Assembly (NCBI GenBank): GCA_902764875.1
Contig: CACWXP010000001.1
Span: forward strand, 62,001 to 126,000
Source: an uncultured Eubacteriales bacterium
GTDB taxonomy: Bacteria > Bacillota > Clostridia > Christensenellales > Aristaeellaceae
Direction of reading: 5' to 3'
Length of the DNA stretch: 64,000 nt
Positions 26,217 to 36,305 of this stretch are shown here, piece by piece. A program made the position numbers and the translations under genes. Under the pieces are notes generated by a model, which had not been told where the DNA came from, searched no databases, and saw only the letters and a program-made list of their open reading frames with translations. Positions within the stretch are counted from its first letter, which is position 1, and the number at the start of each line of letters is the position of its first letter.

Positions 26217-27110
26217 ATGAAAAAGGTTGTTTTCAACAAAGGGGAAGTCGTTTTCCACGAGGGAGACATGGGAACCTGTTTCTACCAGATCGAAGCGGGC
26301 GAAGCAGGTGTATACGTCAGCTACGGCAATGCTGATCAGCGCAAACTGACGGAGATGAAACCCGGGCAGTTTTTCGGCGAGATGGCCGTGATTGAAGCAT
26401 GGCCCCGCAGCACTACCATCGTTGCTGAAAGCGATCTCCACGTGATTGAGATCGGAGAAAGTGAACTGAACGCCTATTTCATGGAACAGCCCGACAAGAT
26501 TCTGGCACTGATGAAGCAGCTGGGCAGCCGGATCCGCGAACTGACGGAAGAATACGATCAGGTGAAGTCCTTTATTGAAGAGGAAAAACTTCCCGAAGGC
26601 GAAAAGAAGGAAGGCTTCCTGGGAAAACTTCGGAAGTACCTGGAACTCAACGCCATGAGCAACAAGAATACCGGCGCCACCCAGGAAGATATCCTGATGA
26701 TGAAGGACTACGGCAAACTGGAAAAAGGCGATACGGATGTGCTTGAATTCAAGCGCGGCGATATCATTTTCCGTGAAGGTGACGCCGGGAATTATATGTA
26801 TGCGGTTTACGGCGGTTCTGTCGGAATTTATACCAACTACGGAACGGCTCAGGAGAACAAGCTGACCCAGCTTTATTCGGATGCCTTCTTCGGCGAGATG
26901 GGCCTCATCGGGGAAGAAAAACGCAGCGCGACCGCCGTGGTTGAAGAGGACGGAACCATTCTTGAATGCATCCGCGCAGAAGATATGGAAACCCTGTTCA
27001 AGGACAATCCCGCGAAGATTGACATGATTCTCTGCCATCTGTCCCACCGGCTGCGGAGGCTCACACTCGATTATGTGACAGCTTGCCGTGAAGCGGTCGA
27101 GAAAGCCTGA
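26217..27110 (+). CDS. Protein of two tandem cyclic-nucleotide-binding domains, no effector domain
   Basis: 297 residues. Two CNB domains (~3-110 and ~172-290) are joined by a charged helical linker. Each keeps the phosphate-binding cassette: F-F-G-E55-M-A-V with P-R64-S, and F-F-G-E227-M-G-L with K-R236-S. The Glu and Arg that grip the cyclic phosphate are therefore present twice. There is no DNA-binding, kinase, or membrane domain, so the output must come from a partner. The next gene is a class III cyclase, which suggests a local signal-receptor pair. GAAAGG precedes the ATG. Confidence 0.9.
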   Translation: MKKVVFNKGEVVFHEGDMGTCFYQIEAGEAGVYVSYGNADQRKLTEMKPGQFFGEMAVIEAWPRSTTIVAESDLHVIEIGESELNAYFMEQPDKILALMKQLGSRIRELTEEYDQVKSFIEEEKLPEGEKKEGFLGKLRKYLELNAMSNKNTGATQEDILMMKDYGKLEKGDTDVLEFKRGDIIFREGDAGNYMYAVYGGSVGIYTNYGTAQENKLTQLYSDAFFGEMGLIGEEKRSATAVVEEDGTILECIRAEDMETLFKDNPAKIDMILCHLSHRLRRLTLDYVTACREAVEKA

Positions 27111-27127
27111 CCGGAACGATGCTCACA

Positions 27128-27165
27128 GGTCCGGGACCGGAAAGAAACCGATCCCTGGCCTTTTT
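27128..27165 (+). terminator. Imperfect terminator/attenuator between CNB and cyclase genes
   Basis: Two 13-nt arms (27128-27140 and 27148-27160) pair at about 11 positions counting one G-T, with a 7-nt loop and TTTTT after it. The cyclase ATG lies only 28 bases beyond, and no promoter is visible between. Cyclase expression would then depend on read-through. Confidence 0.6.
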
Positions 27166-27193
27166 CTTTACCTGCAAGAAAGAGGGAAACAGG

Positions 27194-29314
27194 ATGAATA
27201 TTTACATTGATACCTGCGTGCTGCCCCGGGCACAGCTCCAGGAAGGCAGGATTTATCGGGAGAAATTCGGTAAAGATCTGGGATTCGAACTTCTGATGAT
27301 GTTTGATCTTCCGGAATTTGAAGAGAACCTGAAGCAAAACCTGGATCTGTTTGCTGAGGGACCGTTGCTTTTCCATGAGCCGGTATGGGGCGTGGAACAT
27401 TCCGAACCCAAAGGGAGCAAGGCATGGGAAGAAGGCATGTATCATCTGCGGCTGACGAAAGAGTTTTCGGACATCCTGCATCCGGAAGCCATGGTCTATC
27501 ATCTGAACAACGGGGTGATTCTTCCGGAGGAAAAGGAGCGGAGAATCCAGACGGCCCTGGAAAACTATGAGGCAATGCGGGAAATGTTCCCGGACGTTCA
27601 ACTCCTTGTGGAAAACACCGGCACAAAAGCCGACGGAACCATGCTGCTGAACCAGGCGGAATTTACCGACCTTTGCAGGTACAGGAAACTGCCGGTACTG
27701 ATTGACGTCGGTCACGCCACGGCCAACGGATGGGACATTCTGAAGCTGATTCGTGACCTGCACGGACAGATCGGCGGTTTCCATCTTCATAACAACGACG
27801 GCCTGCACGACCTTCACAACAGGCTGACAGACGGGGTGCTGGATATCCGGGAACTGGTTTCCTGCATGGATCTGCTGGTTCCGGACGCTCCGCGGATTAT
27901 CGAGTACAGCCGGCCGGCTTACCACGGGGAACCGCTGATCAGTGACATTGAAACCCTTCGGGGAATGTCCGGCATTCAAACGGCGGGAAAAGCGGGGGAA
28001 GAACAACAGGAAGACGATACGGCAGAACTGTCATCCGACCAGATTAAGTATGTGCTGAAAAACATGAAAGAAGCCGTCTGTCTGACCGGCATGGACGGCA
28101 CAGTGGTTTATGCGAACCGGGCAGCCGAGAAGCTGTTCGGGATCGATGAGCATGACCATAAACGGATCTGGGACGCGATTCCCTTCCGGAAAGAAAATGA
28201 CGCGCTGATCCAGCTGTTCATCGACGGCGTCTCTGAGAAAAAAGGTTCTCTGCGATCCATGGTCGATTATGTGAACAACGACGGGGACCTTTTCCACCTC
28301 TATGTGAACCTGACCTGCGAAGCAGATGACTCCGGGCTGATTCTGATCGTGATCAACGATCTGACCCACCTGATCAACGCTCATTCCGCTTTTGCGCGCT
28401 ATACATCTCCGGAGATCGCGAATTATGTTCTGACGGCACCGGAGGGAGGAAAACAGGGTGGGCAGGAACGCGAAGTGAGCATTCTGATGAGTGACCTCCG
28501 CGGATTTACGGCCATGAGCACCCATCTGTCCTCCACAGACCTGATTACGTTGCTGAATCACTATTTTGAAAGTATGTCCGCGGTGATCCGGCGCTATGAG
28601 GGAACGGTGATCGAATTCCTGGGGGACGGGATTTTCGTGGTTTTCGGCGCGCCGTCGGATCTGCCGAATCATGCGGCCCATGCGGTAGCCTGCGCAATTG
28701 AGATGCAGAACGCCATGACCGAAGTGAATGCCTGGAACCGGGAACAGGGCTACCCGGAACTGGCCATGGGCATCGGGGTTCATTCGGGTACGTGCGTTGT
28801 CGGCAATATCGGCTCGGGGAACAAAATGAAATACGGCTGCATGGGTGAGACGGTGAATCTTGCCGGGCGGCTGGAAGGCTTCTCCATCGGGGGACAGGTT
28901 CTTATTTCCGAAGATACACGGAAGATGATCCCGATGCCCCTGTCCATCATCGGTGAGAAAAGTTTCATGCCCAAAGGCGGGCGCAAAGAAATGAAATTCC
29001 ACAACACTACCGGCATCGGCAACAAACACATACAAAAAGCCGCCGAAGAAGCGATTGAATGGAAACCGCTTTCGGCAGCGATAGAAACCGTTTTCTTCCT
29101 GCTGGACGGAAAAACCGTCAGAAGAAAAAAGTATACGGGAAAGATTCCCAACATTTCTGCAGACCGTAAATTCGGCCTGCTTGAAACCGAAACCATGCTG
29201 AGCCCGCTGCAGGATCTGATGATCCGAACCGGGGACCGGGAAGTTTATGCCAAAGTGCTGGAACCTGAAGGAACCGGATACCGGATCGGATTTACACAGG
29301 GCAGTCTGACCTGA
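27194..29314 (+). CDS. TIM barrel-PAS-class III nucleotide cyclase
   Basis: 706 residues from the ATG at 27194 (AGAGGGAAACAGG upstream); an ATG at 27119 would read through the terminator. Residues ~1-255 resemble a sugar-phosphate isomerase/AP-endonuclease-2 TIM barrel (L-V-E-N-T-G, I-D-V-G-H, F-H-L-H-N-N-D-G metal-type motifs). Residues ~280-395 are a PAS domain (M-D-G-T-V-V-Y-A-N-R-A-A-E). Residues ~420-600 are a class III cyclase: metal Asp in S-D434-L-R-G-F-T and G-D478, and the N555/R559 pair in V-N-L-A-G-R. A C-terminal ~110 residues is unassigned. Cytoplasmic. The residue usually specifying adenine is not standard (see findings), so cAMP versus cGMP is open. Confidence 0.85.
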   Translation: MNIYIDTCVLPRAQLQEGRIYREKFGKDLGFELLMMFDLPEFEENLKQNLDLFAEGPLLFHEPVWGVEHSEPKGSKAWEEGMYHLRLTKEFSDILHPEAMVYHLNNGVILPEEKERRIQTALENYEAMREMFPDVQLLVENTGTKADGTMLLNQAEFTDLCRYRKLPVLIDVGHATANGWDILKLIRDLHGQIGGFHLHNNDGLHDLHNRLTDGVLDIRELVSCMDLLVPDAPRIIEYSRPAYHGEPLISDIETLRGMSGIQTAGKAGEEQQEDDTAELSSDQIKYVLKNMKEAVCLTGMDGTVVYANRAAEKLFGIDEHDHKRIWDAIPFRKENDALIQLFIDGVSEKKGSLRSMVDYVNNDGDLFHLYVNLTCEADDSGLILIVINDLTHLINAHSAFARYTSPEIANYVLTAPEGGKQGGQEREVSILMSDLRGFTAMSTHLSSTDLITLLNHYFESMSAVIRRYEGTVIEFLGDGIFVVFGAPSDLPNHAAHAVACAIEMQNAMTEVNAWNREQGYPELAMGIGVHSGTCVVGNIGSGNKMKYGCMGETVNLAGRLEGFSIGGQVLISEDTRKMIPMPLSIIGEKSFMPKGGRKEMKFHNTTGIGNKHIQKAAEEAIEWKPLSAAIETVFFLLDGKTVRRKKYTGKIPNISADRKFGLLETETMLSPLQDLMIRTGDREVYAKVLEPEGTGYRIGFTQGSLT

Positions 29315-29323
29315 GCAGGCAGC

Positions 29324-29660
29324 TCAGACGATTCCGGTAATTGTCATGAAGTTTCGCCGCCTTCTTCTAATCTGTTTTCCAGGAATGTGACTTCTTCCGG
29401 TCTCGTAGGTATCACTGACAAAGGTGAAGAATCGGTTAGCCTGGGCCCGGGAAATCGGAGTATATCCGATTTCGTCGCATATAATCAGTTGGGCTTTCTT
29501 CAGATTCTTCACCCGGAAACCGGCTGCCCGATCTGTCTCCTGGTTGTCCAGAAGCTTAATCAGGTTCACCATCTTTTCAAAACAGACCGTATAGCCACAG
29601 TTAATGGCTTGCAAGCCAAGTCCGCAGGCGACCATGGTTTTGCCCATTATTTGTGCCGTA
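29324..29660 (-). pseudogene. Decayed IS21-family IstB helper ATPase fragment
   Basis: A 107-codon minus-strand frame holds the IstB core: a G-K-T remnant of Walker A, then I-I-C-D-E-I-G-Y (Walker B) and a R-F-F-T-F-V-S-D-T-Y-E segment. The frame opens inside the P-loop; the GTG part of the loop is in another frame just upstream. The C-terminus drifts into an unrelated arginine-rich tail. About 107 of ~250 residues remain, with no IstA and no terminal repeats seen, so this is a dead transposon remnant. Confidence 0.8.
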
Positions 29661-29918
29661 TTGCGTATTACCTCGTTTCTTATTATCCACCTTGGAAGTG
29701 CACGAAATCAATCGCATGTTTAAGCCACTGTAAGACTATTCCAATTTTATTATGTTTGGTGACATTGGTACATTTTCTTTTTAAATTAGTACAATTTGAT
29801 ACGAACTTGTAAAAATCGGTAGAATAATGGCCATATGTATGCTACAATACAAACAGCATTAAACTCGTTTTTATGCGGTGAATCCGCATAAAATATATTA
29901 AAAAAGGAGTGTGTCTCT
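29661..29918 (+). promoter_or_regulatory. AT-rich leader and promoter of the mgl-like operon
   Basis: No gene is seen here. Best promoter: TTGATA (29796-29801), an 18-bp spacer and TAGAAT (29820-29825). A second -10-like TACAAT with an upstream TG is at 29843-29848. AAAAAGGAGTG just before 29919 is a strong ribosome site. Base composition drops sharply to AT-rich relative to the cyclase gene. Confidence 0.55.
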
Positions 29919-31178
29919 ATGAAGAAGATCCTGTCCCTGGTAGTGGCTGCAGTGATGATCCTCGGTATCGTCGGAATCGCTGCTGCTGATGTCCCCAATG
30001 CGGAAAAACCCGTAATCTGGTACAACCGGCAGCCGTCCAACAGTACGACTGGCGAGCTGGACATGGATGCTCTGAATTTCAACGGAAAGACTTATTATGT
30101 TGGGTTTGATGCCAAACAGGGCGCTGAATTGCAGGGCCAGATGGTTGTTGATTACCTGAAGGCTCATGGTGAAGGCCTTGACCGTAATGGTGACGGTATC
30201 ATCGGTTATGTTCTGTGCATCGGCGATATTGGCCATAATGACTCTATTGCCCGTACCCGTGGCGCCCGTAAGGCTCTTGGCACTGCTGTTCCGGATGCCG
30301 GACAGGGCAAGACCGAAATTGCGACTATTGACGATGTCGATTCCGCTCCGATTGGTACCAACCTTGACGGCTCTGCTACAGATGTCAAGGACGGCGAAAT
30401 TGAAATTGACGGAAAAACCTATATCGTTCGTGAACTGGCTTCACAGGAAATGAAGAGCTCTGTTGGCGCGACCTGGGATGCTCCCACTGCTGGCAACGCG
30501 ATAAATACCTGGAGTGGCACCTTCGGCGACCAGATTGACGTGGTTGTTTCCAACAACGACGGCATGGGCATGGCTGTGTTCACCGCGTGGTCCAAGGATA
30601 ACAAGGTTCCCACATTCGGATATGATGCCAACAGCGACGCTGTTGCTGCCATTGCTGACGGCTACTGCGGCACCATTTCCCAGAATGCGGATGTTCAGGC
30701 TTATCTGACTCTGCGCACCATGCGTAACGCTTTGGATGATGCTGACATTATGGTTGGTATCAGCACTCCTGATGCTGCAGGCAATGTGTTGTCTGATGAC
30801 CTGTACTACTATGATGAAGCGAACCGTTGCTTCTATGCTCTGAACGGTGCAGTGACAGCTGATAACTATGAAGCTTTCCTTGATGCTACTGCTCCCAATC
30901 CGCTGTTTAACAATCAGCTGACCGAAGAGCAGGCTCCTTCAAAGAAGGTATGGCTGAGCGTCTACAATGCTTCCGACAACTTCCTGAATGCAACTTATGT
31001 TCCCCAGTTGCAGAATTATGACAAGATTCTGAACCTGGATGTTGAATACGTCAAAGGTGACGGACAGACTGAGGCGAACCTGACCGATCGTCTGGGCAAT
31101 CCCGGTGAGTATGATGGCTTTGCGATCAACATGGTGAAGACGGATAATGCCGCTTCCTACATGATTTTGCTCCAGTGA
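29919..31178 (+). CDS. Circularly permuted galactose/glucose-binding protein (MglB-type)
   Basis: 419 residues: a type I signal peptide (cleavage near A-A-A/D24) and a periplasmic-binding-protein fold in permuted order. Residues 24-340 match canonical MglB from its fourth strand (P-V-I-W-Y-N-R-Q-P) to its end. Residues 342-419 match the canonical N-terminus (V-W-L-S-V-Y-N-A-S-D-N-F and the F-A-I-N-M-V strand). MglB ligand residues can all be placed: D353, F355, N404, H106, D108, R112, W186, N213, D236, N256. The calcium-loop-like D88-R-N-G-D-G is also kept. It should bind glucose/galactose for the MglA/MglC genes downstream. There is no lipobox cysteine. Confidence 0.8.
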   Translation: MKKILSLVVAAVMILGIVGIAAADVPNAEKPVIWYNRQPSNSTTGELDMDALNFNGKTYYVGFDAKQGAELQGQMVVDYLKAHGEGLDRNGDGIIGYVLCIGDIGHNDSIARTRGARKALGTAVPDAGQGKTEIATIDDVDSAPIGTNLDGSATDVKDGEIEIDGKTYIVRELASQEMKSSVGATWDAPTAGNAINTWSGTFGDQIDVVVSNNDGMGMAVFTAWSKDNKVPTFGYDANSDAVAAIADGYCGTISQNADVQAYLTLRTMRNALDDADIMVGISTPDAAGNVLSDDLYYYDEANRCFYALNGAVTADNYEAFLDATAPNPLFNNQLTEEQAPSKKVWLSVYNASDNFLNATYVPQLQNYDKILNLDVEYVKGDGQTEANLTDRLGNPGEYDGFAINMVKTDNAASYMILLQ

Positions 31179-31211
31179 TAATATTTCCAATCCAACTCTG
31201 AGTAAGAGTGT

Positions 31212-31243
31212 GGGTCATCAGGTGATTCTCTGCCTGATGACCC
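31212..31243 (+). promoter_or_regulatory. Intercistronic hairpin between binding-protein and ATPase genes
   Basis: An 11-bp perfect stem GGGTCATCAGG/CCTGATGACCC (31212-31222 with 31233-31243), 10-nt loop, no T-run after it. More likely a 3'-stabilising or processing structure than a full terminator, allowing excess binding protein over transporter. Confidence 0.7.
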
Positions 31244-31293
31244 ATTCTCTGTTTCCCGTGGGGGATTAGCGGATAAAAGCGGGGTAAACTAAT

Positions 31294-32802
31294 ATGGCCG
31301 AACAGAATTCAAACCTAATTCTATCCATCAACGGCTTATGCAAATCATTTGGGCGTAACCGGGTACTGGATCATATCAATCTTGACGTGAAAAAAGGCAG
31401 TATCATGGGATTGATGGGCGAAAACGGTGCCGGAAAATCTACCATGATGAAATGCCTATTTGGTACTTATCAAAAGGATGAGGGCACCATTTTTTTAGAC
31501 GGGAAAGAAGTTAACTTTTCCGGCCCAAAGGATGCACTGGAAAGCGGTGTTGCTATGGTGCATCAGGAGTTGAATCAGTGCCTGGAAAGAAATGTTACGG
31601 ACAATCTTTATCTTGGCCGCTATCCGCGTACTTCCATGGGGGTTGTGGACGAAAGACGCATGAAGAATGAAGCTGCTGATTTGTTTAGGCGGCTGAACAT
31701 GACCGTTAACCTTTCCGCTCCAATGAAAACCATGTCTGTTTCTGCACGCCAGATGGTTGAAATAGCAAAAGCGATTTCCTACAACGCAAAACTGATCGTT
31801 CTTGACGAACCGACTTCTTCCCTGACAATAAGGGAAGTTACCAAACTGTTTGAAATGATGCGCAATCTGAAAGAGCAGGGTATATCCCTGGTCTATATCT
31901 CGCATAAAATGGACGAGATTTTTGAGATTTGCGATGAGGTTTCCGTGATGAGAGATGGAAAAATGGTTATGACTAAGGAAACCAAGGAAACCAACATGAA
32001 CGAGTTGATTGCAGCTATGGTTGGCCGGACGCTGGACAATCGTTTTCCGCCAGTTGACAACAATCCGGGAGAAGTTGTTTTGTCCGTTGAACACCTCTCT
32101 ACAAAGTTTGAACCGAATCTGAAAGATATTACTTTCGATGTTCGCGAGGGAGAAATCTTCGGTCTGTACGGACTTGTTGGTGCCGGCCGGACGGAATTGC
32201 TTGAGACCATGTTTGGCGTGCGTACCAGAGCGGCAGGCCGGGTGTATTATAAAGGCCGGTTGATAAACTTCACAAATTCCCGGGATGCTATGGATCACGG
32301 GTTTGCGATGATTACAGAGGAACGGAAAGCCACGGGATTGTTTCTTGAAGGTGATCTGACCTTCAACACGACGATTACCAATCTTTCACACTATATGACC
32401 GGTATTGCACTGTCAAAAGAGAAAATGGTTAAAGCTACTGCCAATGAAATTAATGTGATGCACACGAAATGTATGGGACCATCGGATGCTATTACCGCAC
32501 TCTCCGGTGGTAATCAGCAGAAAGTAATCTTTGGCAAGTGGCTGGAAAGGGCTCCTGAAGTTTTTATGATGGATGAACCCACCAGAGGAATTGACGTTGG
32601 AGCCAAATATGAAATATATGAACTGATTATCAAAATGGCCAAGATGGGGAAGACGATCATTGTCGTTTCCTCCGAGATGCCTGAGATACTAGGTATCACG
32701 AATCGGATCGGCGTTATGTCAAATGGACGCTTGGCTGGTATCGTCAACACTAAAGAAACCGACCAGGAAGAACTTCTGAGACTAAGCGCAAAATATCTGT
32801 AA
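31294..32802 (+). CDS. mglA: Sugar ABC transporter ATPase, two ABC cassettes (MglA-type)
   Basis: 502 residues with two fused ABC domains. Cassette 1: Walker [10 protein letters not shown], Walker B L-I-V-L-D-E-P-T-S-S. Cassette 2 has a degenerate Walker A region (G-L-V-G-A-G-R-T-E) but an intact L-S-G-G-N-Q-Q-K-V signature and [10 protein letters not shown]. This is normal for the MglA/RbsA family. It energises import of the sugar bound by the upstream protein. Codon use is more AT-rich than the flanking genes. Confidence 0.92.
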   Translation: MAEQNSNLILSINGLCKSFGRNRVLDHINLDVKKGSIMGLMGENGAGKSTMMKCLFGTYQKDEGTIFLDGKEVNFSGPKDALESGVAMVHQELNQCLERNVTDNLYLGRYPRTSMGVVDERRMKNEAADLFRRLNMTVNLSAPMKTMSVSARQMVEIAKAISYNAKLIVLDEPTSSLTIREVTKLFEMMRNLKEQGISLVYISHKMDEIFEICDEVSVMRDGKMVMTKETKETNMNELIAAMVGRTLDNRFPPVDNNPGEVVLSVEHLSTKFEPNLKDITFDVREGEIFGLYGLVGAGRTELLETMFGVRTRAAGRVYYKGRLINFTNSRDAMDHGFAMITEERKATGLFLEGDLTFNTTITNLSHYMTGIALSKEKMVKATANEINVMHTKCMGPSDAITALSGGNQQKVIFGKWLERAPEVFMMDEPTRGIDVGAKYEIYELIIKMAKMGKTIIVVSSEMPEILGITNRIGVMSNGRLAGIVNTKETDQEELLRLSAKYL

Positions 32803-32817
32803 CAGGAGGAAAACGAC

Positions 32818-34470
32818 ATGGAAAACAAAGCGATTCTTACGGTTGAGGAGGAACAAAATCTGCTCCGACCGATAGACCAATACATAAGCGACATTCAGAA
32901 AAAGATCAACGAGCTTCGCAAAGACGGAACTGATCGGGTGATTGCTCTGAACAATCATATTGCTGTTGTTCGTGAAAATTCTAATTTGACCAAAGCCGAG
33001 AAGAAGTCTATCATAACTGAAAACAAACAGACACTTTCAGGAGCAAAAAGAGTCGAGCAGGAAAAAAAAGCAGAGGTTAACAAACTAATTGATGAGGCGG
33101 TTAAGTATCTAGACGAACACTATGACAAAGAGTACTACAACAAGATAGCAGCTTCTTGCGAAGCTGAAACCGCAGCTGAAAAAGTCCGTTATGAAAAAGA
33201 ACTGGAAGATCTAAAGATCCAGCATCAGAAGGATTTTCAGAAAGCAGTCAGCAAAACTGATCTTAAAGAAGAAAAATATGTTTTTAAGAATAGACTGTTT
33301 GATGCGAAACTGAAACATGAATCCACCTTGCAAGAAATCAAAGACCGTCAGCACGAAGCCTTTGCGCACCGGTACCACCTAATTGATCTCTTGCGCCTCT
33401 CAAAATTCACTTTCAGTGAGAAACAGAAACAGAAATGGGAAAACTATAAATATACCTTTAATATCAAACAGTTTCTGCTCAAAAACGGTCTTTATATTGC
33501 GATTTTGTTCATTTTCATATTACTGTGTATTTTGACCCCAATTATCAAGCATACACAGTTGCTGACAATGAACAACATCTTAAACATTTTGCAAGCGGCA
33601 TCCCCACGTATGTTCCTGGCGCTGGGCGTTGGCGGACTGATCCTTTTGGGCGGTACAGACCTTTCTGTTGGACGAATGGTTGGTACTAGTATGGTTCTTT
33701 CAACAATGATCATGCACAAGGGGATCAATACAGGTGCATTATTTGACAAAATATATGACTTTACCGGGATGCCTATCGGTCTGCGGATTGTACTGGCTTT
33801 GGTGGTATGTTGTTGCGTAACGACACTGTTTACAACAATTGCCGGCTTCTTTACGGCACGTTTTAAGATCCATCCTTTCATTTCCACAATGGCAAATATG
33901 CTGATCATGTTTGGTCTGATTACTTTTGCAACAAAAGGCGTATCATTCGGCGCAATTGAGATGTCAATCAATAAGACTATCATGCCGAAGATTGGCGGCC
34001 AATTCCCGACAATTATTCTATGGGCTGTTGCAGCCGTTGTCGTCATGTGGTTTGTTTGGAATAAGACGAAATTAGGAAAGAACATGTATGCTGTTGGTGG
34101 AAATCCCGAAGCGGCCGCTGTATCCGGTATCTCGGTATTTAAAGTTACGATAATCGCATTTATGATTGCTGGTATTCTTTATGGATTTGGCTCCTGGCTC
34201 GAATGTATTCGCATGGTGGGTTCTGGTTCAGCTGCTTACGGACAGGGTTGGGAAACGGATGCAATAGCAGCTTGTGTTGTCGGAGGTATCTCATTTAAGG
34301 GCGGTATTGGCAAGATTCAGGGAATTGTTGTGGGTGTACTGGTTTTCACCGCCTTGACATATTCATTGACAATACTTGGTGTTGATACAAATCTGCAGTT
34401 TGTTTTCTCTGGTATTATTATTCTGTCCGCGGTAACTATTGACTGCCTTAAATATGTACAGAAGAAATAA
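32818..34470 (+). CDS. mglC: Sugar ABC transporter permease (MglC-type) with long N-terminal helical extension
   Basis: 550 residues. Residues ~220-550 are a standard MglC/RbsC permease, with G-G-T-D-L-S-V-G-R, the A-V-G-G-N-P-E-A-A-A-V-S-G cytosolic (ATPase-contact) loop, and about eight to ten helices. Residues 1-215 are an extra hydrophilic region rich in Lys/Glu and predicted coiled coil, before the first membrane helix. Canonical MglC is about 330 residues. The extension would lie in the cytoplasm and could contact MglA or tether another protein. AGGAGG ahead of the ATG at 32818 supports the long start. Confidence 0.88.
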   Translation: MENKAILTVEEEQNLLRPIDQYISDIQKKINELRKDGTDRVIALNNHIAVVRENSNLTKAEKKSIITENKQTLSGAKRVEQEKKAEVNKLIDEAVKYLDEHYDKEYYNKIAASCEAETAAEKVRYEKELEDLKIQHQKDFQKAVSKTDLKEEKYVFKNRLFDAKLKHESTLQEIKDRQHEAFAHRYHLIDLLRLSKFTFSEKQKQKWENYKYTFNIKQFLLKNGLYIAILFIFILLCILTPIIKHTQLLTMNNILNILQAASPRMFLALGVGGLILLGGTDLSVGRMVGTSMVLSTMIMHKGINTGALFDKIYDFTGMPIGLRIVLALVVCCCVTTLFTTIAGFFTARFKIHPFISTMANMLIMFGLITFATKGVSFGAIEMSINKTIMPKIGGQFPTIILWAVAAVVVMWFVWNKTKLGKNMYAVGGNPEAAAVSGISVFKVTIIAFMIAGILYGFGSWLECIRMVGSGSAAYGQGWETDAIAACVVGGISFKGGIGKIQGIVVGVLVFTALTYSLTILGVDTNLQFVFSGIIILSAVTIDCLKYVQKK

Positions 34471-34675: not shown

Positions 34676-34708
34676 GGAGCCCGCACGCTGTGCGGGCTCC
34701 GATGTTTT
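34676..34708 (+). terminator. Terminator after the mgl-like operon
   Basis: An 11-bp perfect stem GGAGCCCGCAC/GTGCGGGCTCC (34676-34686 with 34690-34700), 3-nt loop, followed by GATGTTTTT. Confidence 0.9.
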
Positions 34709-35203: not shown

Positions 35204-35264
35204 ATGGTTAGTTCATTTCCGGATGAACAATCCGGAAAAAAATAAAAAAAGGAGTGTACCCCGT

Positions 35265-36305
35265 ATGAAGAAGATCCTTGCTCTGGTACTCGCACTGGTA
35301 ATGTGCATCGGCTGCGCTTCCGCGTTTGCTGACAAAGTTGGCGTTTCCATGCCCACCAAAGACCTGCAGAGATGGGTGCAGGACGGCGAAAACATGGAAA
35401 AAGAACTGAAAGATGCCGGATTCGAAGTTGAACTGCAGTATGCGTCCAACGACGTTCCCACCCAGCTGAATCAGGTTGAAACCATGATCGACAACGGATG
35501 CAACGTTATCGTTATCTCCGCTATCGAAGGTTCCTCCCTGGGCACCGCTCTGGCGAAGGCCAAGGAAAAGGGCGTCAAGGTTATCGCTTATGACCGTCTT
35601 CTGATGGACAGCGATGCTGTTGACTACTATGCCACCTTCGACAACTACATGGTTGGTACCGTTCAGGGTACCTATGTGAAGGAACAGCTGGATCTGGACA
35701 ATGCTGCCGGCCCCTTCTACATGGAAATCACCGCCGGCGACCCCGGTGACAACAACGCCCGTTATTTCTATCAGGGCGCGATCGACGTGCTGAAGCCCTA
35801 CATGGATGCTGGCAAGATCGTGGTTCGTTCCGGCCAGATTGAGTTCGATCAGGTTGCTACCCCCACCTGGAAGACCGACGTTGCTCAGAAGCGTGCTGAC
35901 GACATCCTGACCGGCTACTATGCCAACGGCGAACAGCTGGATGTGTGGCTCTGCTCCAACGACTCCACCGCTCTGGGCGTGACCAACGCTCTGGACAACT
36001 ACACCGGCGAAGGCTGGCCGATCATCACTGGTCAGGACTGCGACATCGCCAACACCAAGAACATGATCGCCGGCAAGCAGGCTATGTCCGTGTTCAAAGA
36101 CACCCGGACCCTGGCTGCTCAGGTTGTTAAGATGATCAAGCAGATCCTCGCGGGCGAGGAAGTTGAAGTGAACGACACCGAGACCTACAACAACAACGTG
36201 ATCACCGTGCCGTCCTACCTGTGCGCTCCCGTGTTTGCGGATGCGAACAACTACAAAGAGCTGCTGGTCGACTCCGGCTACTACACCGAAGATCAGCTGA
36301 AGTAA
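35265..36305 (+). CDS. chvE: Multiple-monosaccharide ABC transporter substrate-binding protein (ChvE-like)
   Basis: 346 residues from the ATG at 35265 (strong AAAGGAG); an ATG at 35223 lies before it. Signal peptide of ~23 residues ending A-S-A-F-A/D. Cysteines in the signal region (M-C-I-G-C-A) do not form a normal lipobox. Canonical-order binding-protein fold starting V-G-V-S-M-P-T, with N-D-S-T-A-L-G and T-G-Q-D-C-D-I-A ligand-pocket segments. Close in layout to ChvE/GguABC systems for glucose, galactose, xylose or arabinose. Its normal domain order contrasts with the permuted protein at 29919. Confidence 0.88.
   Translation: MKKILALVLALVMCIGCASAFADKVGVSMPTKDLQRWVQDGENMEKELKDAGFEVELQYASNDVPTQLNQVETMIDNGCNVIVISAIEGSSLGTALAKAKEKGVKVIAYDRLLMDSDAVDYYATFDNYMVGTVQGTYVKEQLDLDNAAGPFYMEITAGDPGDNNARYFYQGAIDVLKPYMDAGKIVVRSGQIEFDQVATPTWKTDVAQKRADDILTGYYANGEQLDVWLCSNDSTALGVTNALDNYTGEGWPIITGQDCDIANTKNMIAGKQAMSVFKDTRTLAAQVVKMIKQILAGEEVEVNDTETYNNNVITVPSYLCAPVFADANNYKELLVDSGYYTEDQLK

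Follow-up and report, generated by a model that had tools for sequence, protein, structure and literature searches.

The window, the whole stretch of 64,000 nucleotides that was analysed, almost certainly encodes a naturally occurring, circularly permuted form of the glucose/galactose receptor MglB, which belongs to the TpMglB-2 (Type Ic / Cluster Bc) subclass and provides a complete mglB-mglA-mglC importer with its receptor. The identification is carried by the order of the chain and its co-linearity with a crystal structure, by the conserved sugar contacts and by the operon, as these appear in the sequence and in a predicted model. The window protein is a further member of a published group of permutants, and the rotated order itself is already known: TpMglB-2 (Tp0684) of Treponema pallidum, with a crystal structure at 2.05 Å, was described as circularly permuted in 2016 (PMC4990184), and its structures are available as PDB 5jx2, 6bgc and 6bgd. 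The name ‘Type Ic / Cluster Bc’ was proposed there for permuted receptors, glucose binding by ITC and DSF and a conformational change were reported, and relatives of TpMglB-2 were placed among treponemes and, in a cladogram, among Gram-positive bacteria, often from the gut (PMC4990184). An earlier note on this DNA, which had proposed the permutation, knew of no described natural permutant in the family; that view had been overtaken by TpMglB-2, and a search of literature titles named no further natural permutant of the MglB family. The gene and its neighbours comprise the following features.

29904..29909, + strand: AAGGAG ribosome-binding site of the permuted mglB, nine bases before the ATG, read from the sequence
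29919..31178, + strand: circularly permuted mglB, an open reading frame with ATG start for a predicted secreted sugar-binding protein of 419 aa
29919..29987, + strand: signal peptide, residues 1-23, without a lipobox cysteine, read from the translation
29988..30941, + strand: residues 24-341, comprising the N-lobe from its fourth strand onward, the C-lobe and a linking stretch ahead of the moved block (Peripla_BP_4, hhalign)
30180..30206, + strand: EF-like calcium loop at residues 88-96 (DRNGDGIIG), matching residues 134-142 of the E. coli protein
30942..31175, + strand: residues 342-419, the moved block, corresponding to the canonical MglB N-terminus with lobe 1 strands 1-3, PF18610 (Pfam, hhalign)
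31210..31245, + strand: 15-pair hairpin between mglB and mglA, a candidate from a pattern scan
31294..32802, + strand: mglA, transporter ATPase; best NCBIfam model MglA, 666.5 bits, under the 828-bit cut-off
32818..34470, + strand: mglC, permease of 550 aa with an N-terminal extension; best NCBIfam model MglC, residues 215-550
32818..33453, + strand: helical extension of 212 aa at the N-terminus of MglC, with no Pfam family over cut-off
34676..34700, + strand: terminator-like hairpin 3' of mglC, a candidate from a pattern scan

The rotated order is apparent from the arrangement of Pfam domains. Positions 93-255 of the Peripla_BP_4 model lie at residues 55-273, with the first third of the model missing, and PF18610 (Peripla_BP_7) lies at residues 342-411 (E 1.3e-37; 128.3 bits, cut-off 36.8). 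The canonical MglB model of NCBIfam, NF011924, scored 89.9 bits in two stretches, against a full-length criterion of 420 bits. A single-sequence phmmer comparison of E. coli MglB with the C-terminal block gave nothing significant (-0.7 bits) and, since phmmer is blind at this block, profiles were compared by hhalign: a permuted profile of the window protein and 84 homologous frames (some of them repeat copies, the window's own among them) and a canonical profile of E. coli MglB and 28 loci of the window's genus. Residues 24-341 alone aligned to mature canonical columns 84-306 (E 6.6e-25), from the fourth N-lobe strand onward, and four segments of this part, used as positive controls, fell in their expected places with E values of 2e-6 to 4e-14. 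Residues 340-419 alone aligned to canonical columns 4-75, the right place at the MglB N-terminus but with a weak score (E 0.0022, probability only 13%; with insert columns stripped, score 21.6, E 0.0093, probability 4.4%).

This weak score is relevant to a second explanation, raised as a possibility for TpMglB-2 (PMC4990184), in which there is no strict permutation: the block at the N-terminus of MglB would have been lost, and a block from another gene, added at the C-terminus, would occupy its position. The low hhalign probability (4-13%) and the equalling of the score of 21.6 in six of 600 column shuffles are in keeping with such a replacement, as is the 13% identity between the moved block of TpMglB-2 and the canonical N-terminus (PMC4990184). 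Nevertheless, 67-68 columns align on the canonical N-terminus, and both the D-x-F sugar motif and the A-I-N strand fall into register; one of the 600 shuffles gave a long alignment there and none reached that placement at an equal score, so the placement of the moved block is better supported than its score. Moreover, restoring the canonical order lifted the whole-chain profile score against canonical MglB from 169.2 in the natural order to 187.7. Segment replacement is considered unlikely, and circular permutation with respect to MglB is borne out by the Pfam order, by the hhalign placement of both parts and by co-linearity with 5jx2. The permuted gene would have arisen from an mglB gene that was duplicated, fused and truncated.

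With 5jx2, the window protein is co-linear over residues 28-415 of 419 (phmmer against PDB sequences, E 2.5e-92). The match takes in the N-terminus and exceeds 90% of the mature chain, the extent by which membership of the subclass is defined (PMC4990184). An AlphaFold2 model built on 47 aligned sequences (mean pLDDT 83.8, pTM 0.83) predicts strands at residues 32-35, 58-63, 94-101, 342-347, 373-378 and 400-404 and a last helix at 408-418; the order expected for the N-lobe sheet of the subclass is 5-4-6-1-2-3. The C-terminal segment is predicted to supply the strands 342-347, 373-378 and 400-404, and the new termini, which the earlier note had put in helix 3 of lobe 1, fall in the model after helix 3, directly before the fourth strand at 32-35. 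In a Foldseek search with this model the four best PDB matches were all TpMglB-2 (E 6.2e-39 to 2.3e-37 over 395-403 columns), the fold match of 5jx2 had an E value of 1.6e-38, and E. coli MglB (2gbp) matched with E 2.5e-11 over 295 columns.

Sugar contacts were mapped through Table 2 of PMC4990184, the E. coli sequence and the 47 aligned sequences. E. coli D14, F16, N91, H152 and D154 correspond to D353, F355, N36, H106 and D108 of the window protein, and R158, W183, N211, D236 and N256 to R112, W186, N213, D236 and Q255; all ten positions are invariant in 47 of 47 sequences, as is each of D88, N90, D92 and G96 in the calcium loop. Eight of the ten contacts first proposed for the window protein (D353, F355, H106, D108, R112, W186, N213 and D236) thus stand. 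N256 was off by one, the E. coli N256 position being taken by Q255 (Q in 47/47), and residue 256 itself is N in 20 sequences and H in 27; N404 is conserved in 47/47 yet is absent from the contact table of PMC4990184, and N36 (47/47) had been omitted. A protein that had given up glucose and galactose for another ligand or a sensor role appears very unlikely. In favour of such a change, the host genome does also contain a ChvE-like monosaccharide receptor, but the ten contacts are conserved, nine of them identical to E. coli and Q255 as in glucose-binding TpMglB-2, and mglA and mglC lie directly downstream. By analogy with TpMglB-2 and E. coli MglB, an ordinary signal peptide would export the permuted MglB, which would fold into the usual two lobes with the C-terminal block supplying strands 1-3 of lobe 1; the lobes would then close on D-glucose (probably preferred) or D-galactose, and the sugar would be passed to the MglA-MglC transporter.

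The expression signals expected of a working gene are present, namely the AAGGAG site and a signal peptide, MKKILSLVVAAVMILGIVGIAAA followed by D, that is likely cut between AAA and D (cut site judged by eye). The mgl-type neighbours are likewise in place, with mglA and then mglC downstream as judged by best NCBIfam models, although the MglC model scored 272.9 bits, under its 386-bit cut-off. The hairpin between mglB and mglA could favour expression of the receptor over the transporter; the terminator pattern scan returned seven terminator-like sites against a shuffle mean of 5.3. A second sugar-importer set follows mglC, with a receptor at 35223-36302 (best model ChvE, 447.8 bits, cut-off 460) and then ATPase-like and permease-like frames taken from the ORF list. 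Directly upstream of the permuted mglB, at 29327-29647 on the - strand, lies an IS21 istB-like remnant, which matches positions 103-186 of the 238 in PF01695 (E 3e-17). Further upstream, 26217-29314 on the + strand holds two neighbouring genes: one encodes a protein with two cyclic-nucleotide-binding domains, and an adjoining frame of 731 residues carries a xylose-isomerase-like TIM barrel (weak, under cut-off) together with PAS and adenylate/guanylate cyclase domains.

Relatives were found at 80 loci on other contigs, kept from 172 candidates, with 62-95% identity to the window MglB and most of them matched from residue 1-29 to 414-419. The host draft genome consists of 67 contigs, in which a mis-joined contig or faulty annotation might feign a rotated order; the relatives on 80 other contigs and a crystal structure, 5jx2, in the same order rule this out, and the probability of an artefact is negligible. 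PF18610 occurs in five of 45 genomes of the window's genus, in 16 of 300 sampled within the family to which genome G095 belongs and in two of 196 in a class draw, one of these being the window's own. Canonical (L116) and permuted (L130) mgl operons occur together in one genome of the window's genus, G008. A search of the window genome with the MglB model found no canonical MglB, the best hit after the pieces of the permuted gene itself being the ChvE-like protein (E 3.9e-14). A relative with 68% identity is present in Collinsella, an actinobacterium, which with the patchy distribution fits horizontal spread, as was already suggested (PMC4990184). In a tree of MglA, 31 permuted-type loci, selected among the 81 that have mglA, formed one clade against 15 canonical loci and one outgroup (SH-aLRT 100), a lower-grade result because branches are long and the permuted loci had been found by similarity to the window protein.

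It has been proposed that permutation may be an adaptation to anchoring, the membrane-anchored lipoprotein being a common, though not a strictly defining, trait of the subclass (PMC4990184). The signal region of the window MglB has no lipobox cysteine and so departs from this trait. By lipobox pattern, 49 of 78 scored permuted MglB proteins look anchored and 29 do not; in the window's half of the tree 23 of 29 scored proteins are unanchored, and in the other half 43 of 49 are anchored. At the fewest, eight changes of anchoring are needed on the drawn tree, four of them forced by its starred branches. A mostly lipobox-free clade is not mentioned in the accessible sections of PMC4990184, and its existence weakens the tethering idea published there in 2016. 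Judged from these sequences, anchoring and a lipid tether seem not to be needed for the permuted form, and anchoring may still be the ancestral state. Among 27 SBP_bac_1 receptors of the host (L134-L160), seven of them unreadable, the pattern calls four of 20 readable proteins lipidated, one (L145) wrongly by eye. At least 16 of the 20 readable receptors are without a lipobox. An outer membrane was considered as the reason for unanchored receptors and is unsupported, as no Omp85 was found in the host draft genome, which is 93% complete.

The permuted form is accompanied by a long N-terminal extension of the permease. A homologous in-frame extension is present in 77 of 77 permuted loci with a readable mglC (73 of 73 distinct loci once four duplicate contigs are dropped; eight of the 85 loci, at contig ends, were unscored) and in none of 15 canonical loci at E values up to 1e-3. 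In four canonical loci of the same genus (L126-L129) MglC starts with another kind of extension, about 230 residues long and headed by a hydrophobic stretch. Among 345 genomes searched, the extension is present in all 21 with the permuted form: in the window's genus the five genomes with PF18610 and the five with the extension are the same ones, and in the family of G095 it occurs in 18 of 300 genomes, including all 16 with PF18610. Of the two genomes with the extension only, the match in G461 lies 1.1 kb from the contig start, so mglA and mglB would fall off the contig, and that in G357 is weak (E 1.8e-4). AlphaFold2 predicts long helices at residues 9-34, 38-53, 59-142 and 146-193, with block pLDDT of 86-93 except for two blocks, the first at 70 and another at 78, and a whole-chain pTM of only 0.62. 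The MglC model had no PDB match at E <=0.001 in a fold search, phmmer against PDB sequences gave none at E up to 0.1, and the literature searched yielded no report of an N-terminal extension on an MglC permease. Nor do the accessible sections of PMC4990184 mention one linked to permuted mglB.

Because the extension has no signal, and with the N-terminus of MglC placed by the usual permease topology, the extension probably lies on the cytoplasmic side, where this arm could tie the uptake of glucose to MglA or to some partner in the cytoplasm. That permuted MglB and extended MglC form a distinct, co-adapted transporter variant, their changes possibly selected together, is a tentative suggestion and on balance doubtful. 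The operons may share one ancestor, so linkage alone is no proof of a functional tie between extension and permutation, and the extension and the missing lipobox may be mere traits of one inherited operon.

Natural circular permutants inform on the tolerance of folds and on the origin of rearranged genes, and for the present group the founding structure already exists. The permease extension appears to be a broadly retained and uncharacterised accessory of a textbook sugar importer, and the genus members with canonical operons, together with the genome that has both, allow a clean comparison.

In comparison with known systems, the window MglB and TpMglB-2 have in common the chain order from end to end, the predicted fold, the calcium loop and the contact set, in which Q stands where E. 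coli has N256. Their identity is 41-42%, and they differ in D353 of the window protein versus N311 of TpMglB-2, in about 25 additional residues around 131-155 of the window protein (phmmer alignment), and in Tp0684 being a lipoprotein whereas the window protein lacks the lipobox cysteine. With canonical MglB (E. coli, 2gbp) the window protein has in common the fold elements, nine of ten contacts, the calcium loop and the mglB-A-C kind of operon, although MglC of the 15 canonical operons examined is without the window-type helical extension. The main difference is one of order: canonical MglB has the first three strands of lobe 1 at its N-terminus, the window MglB at its C-terminus.
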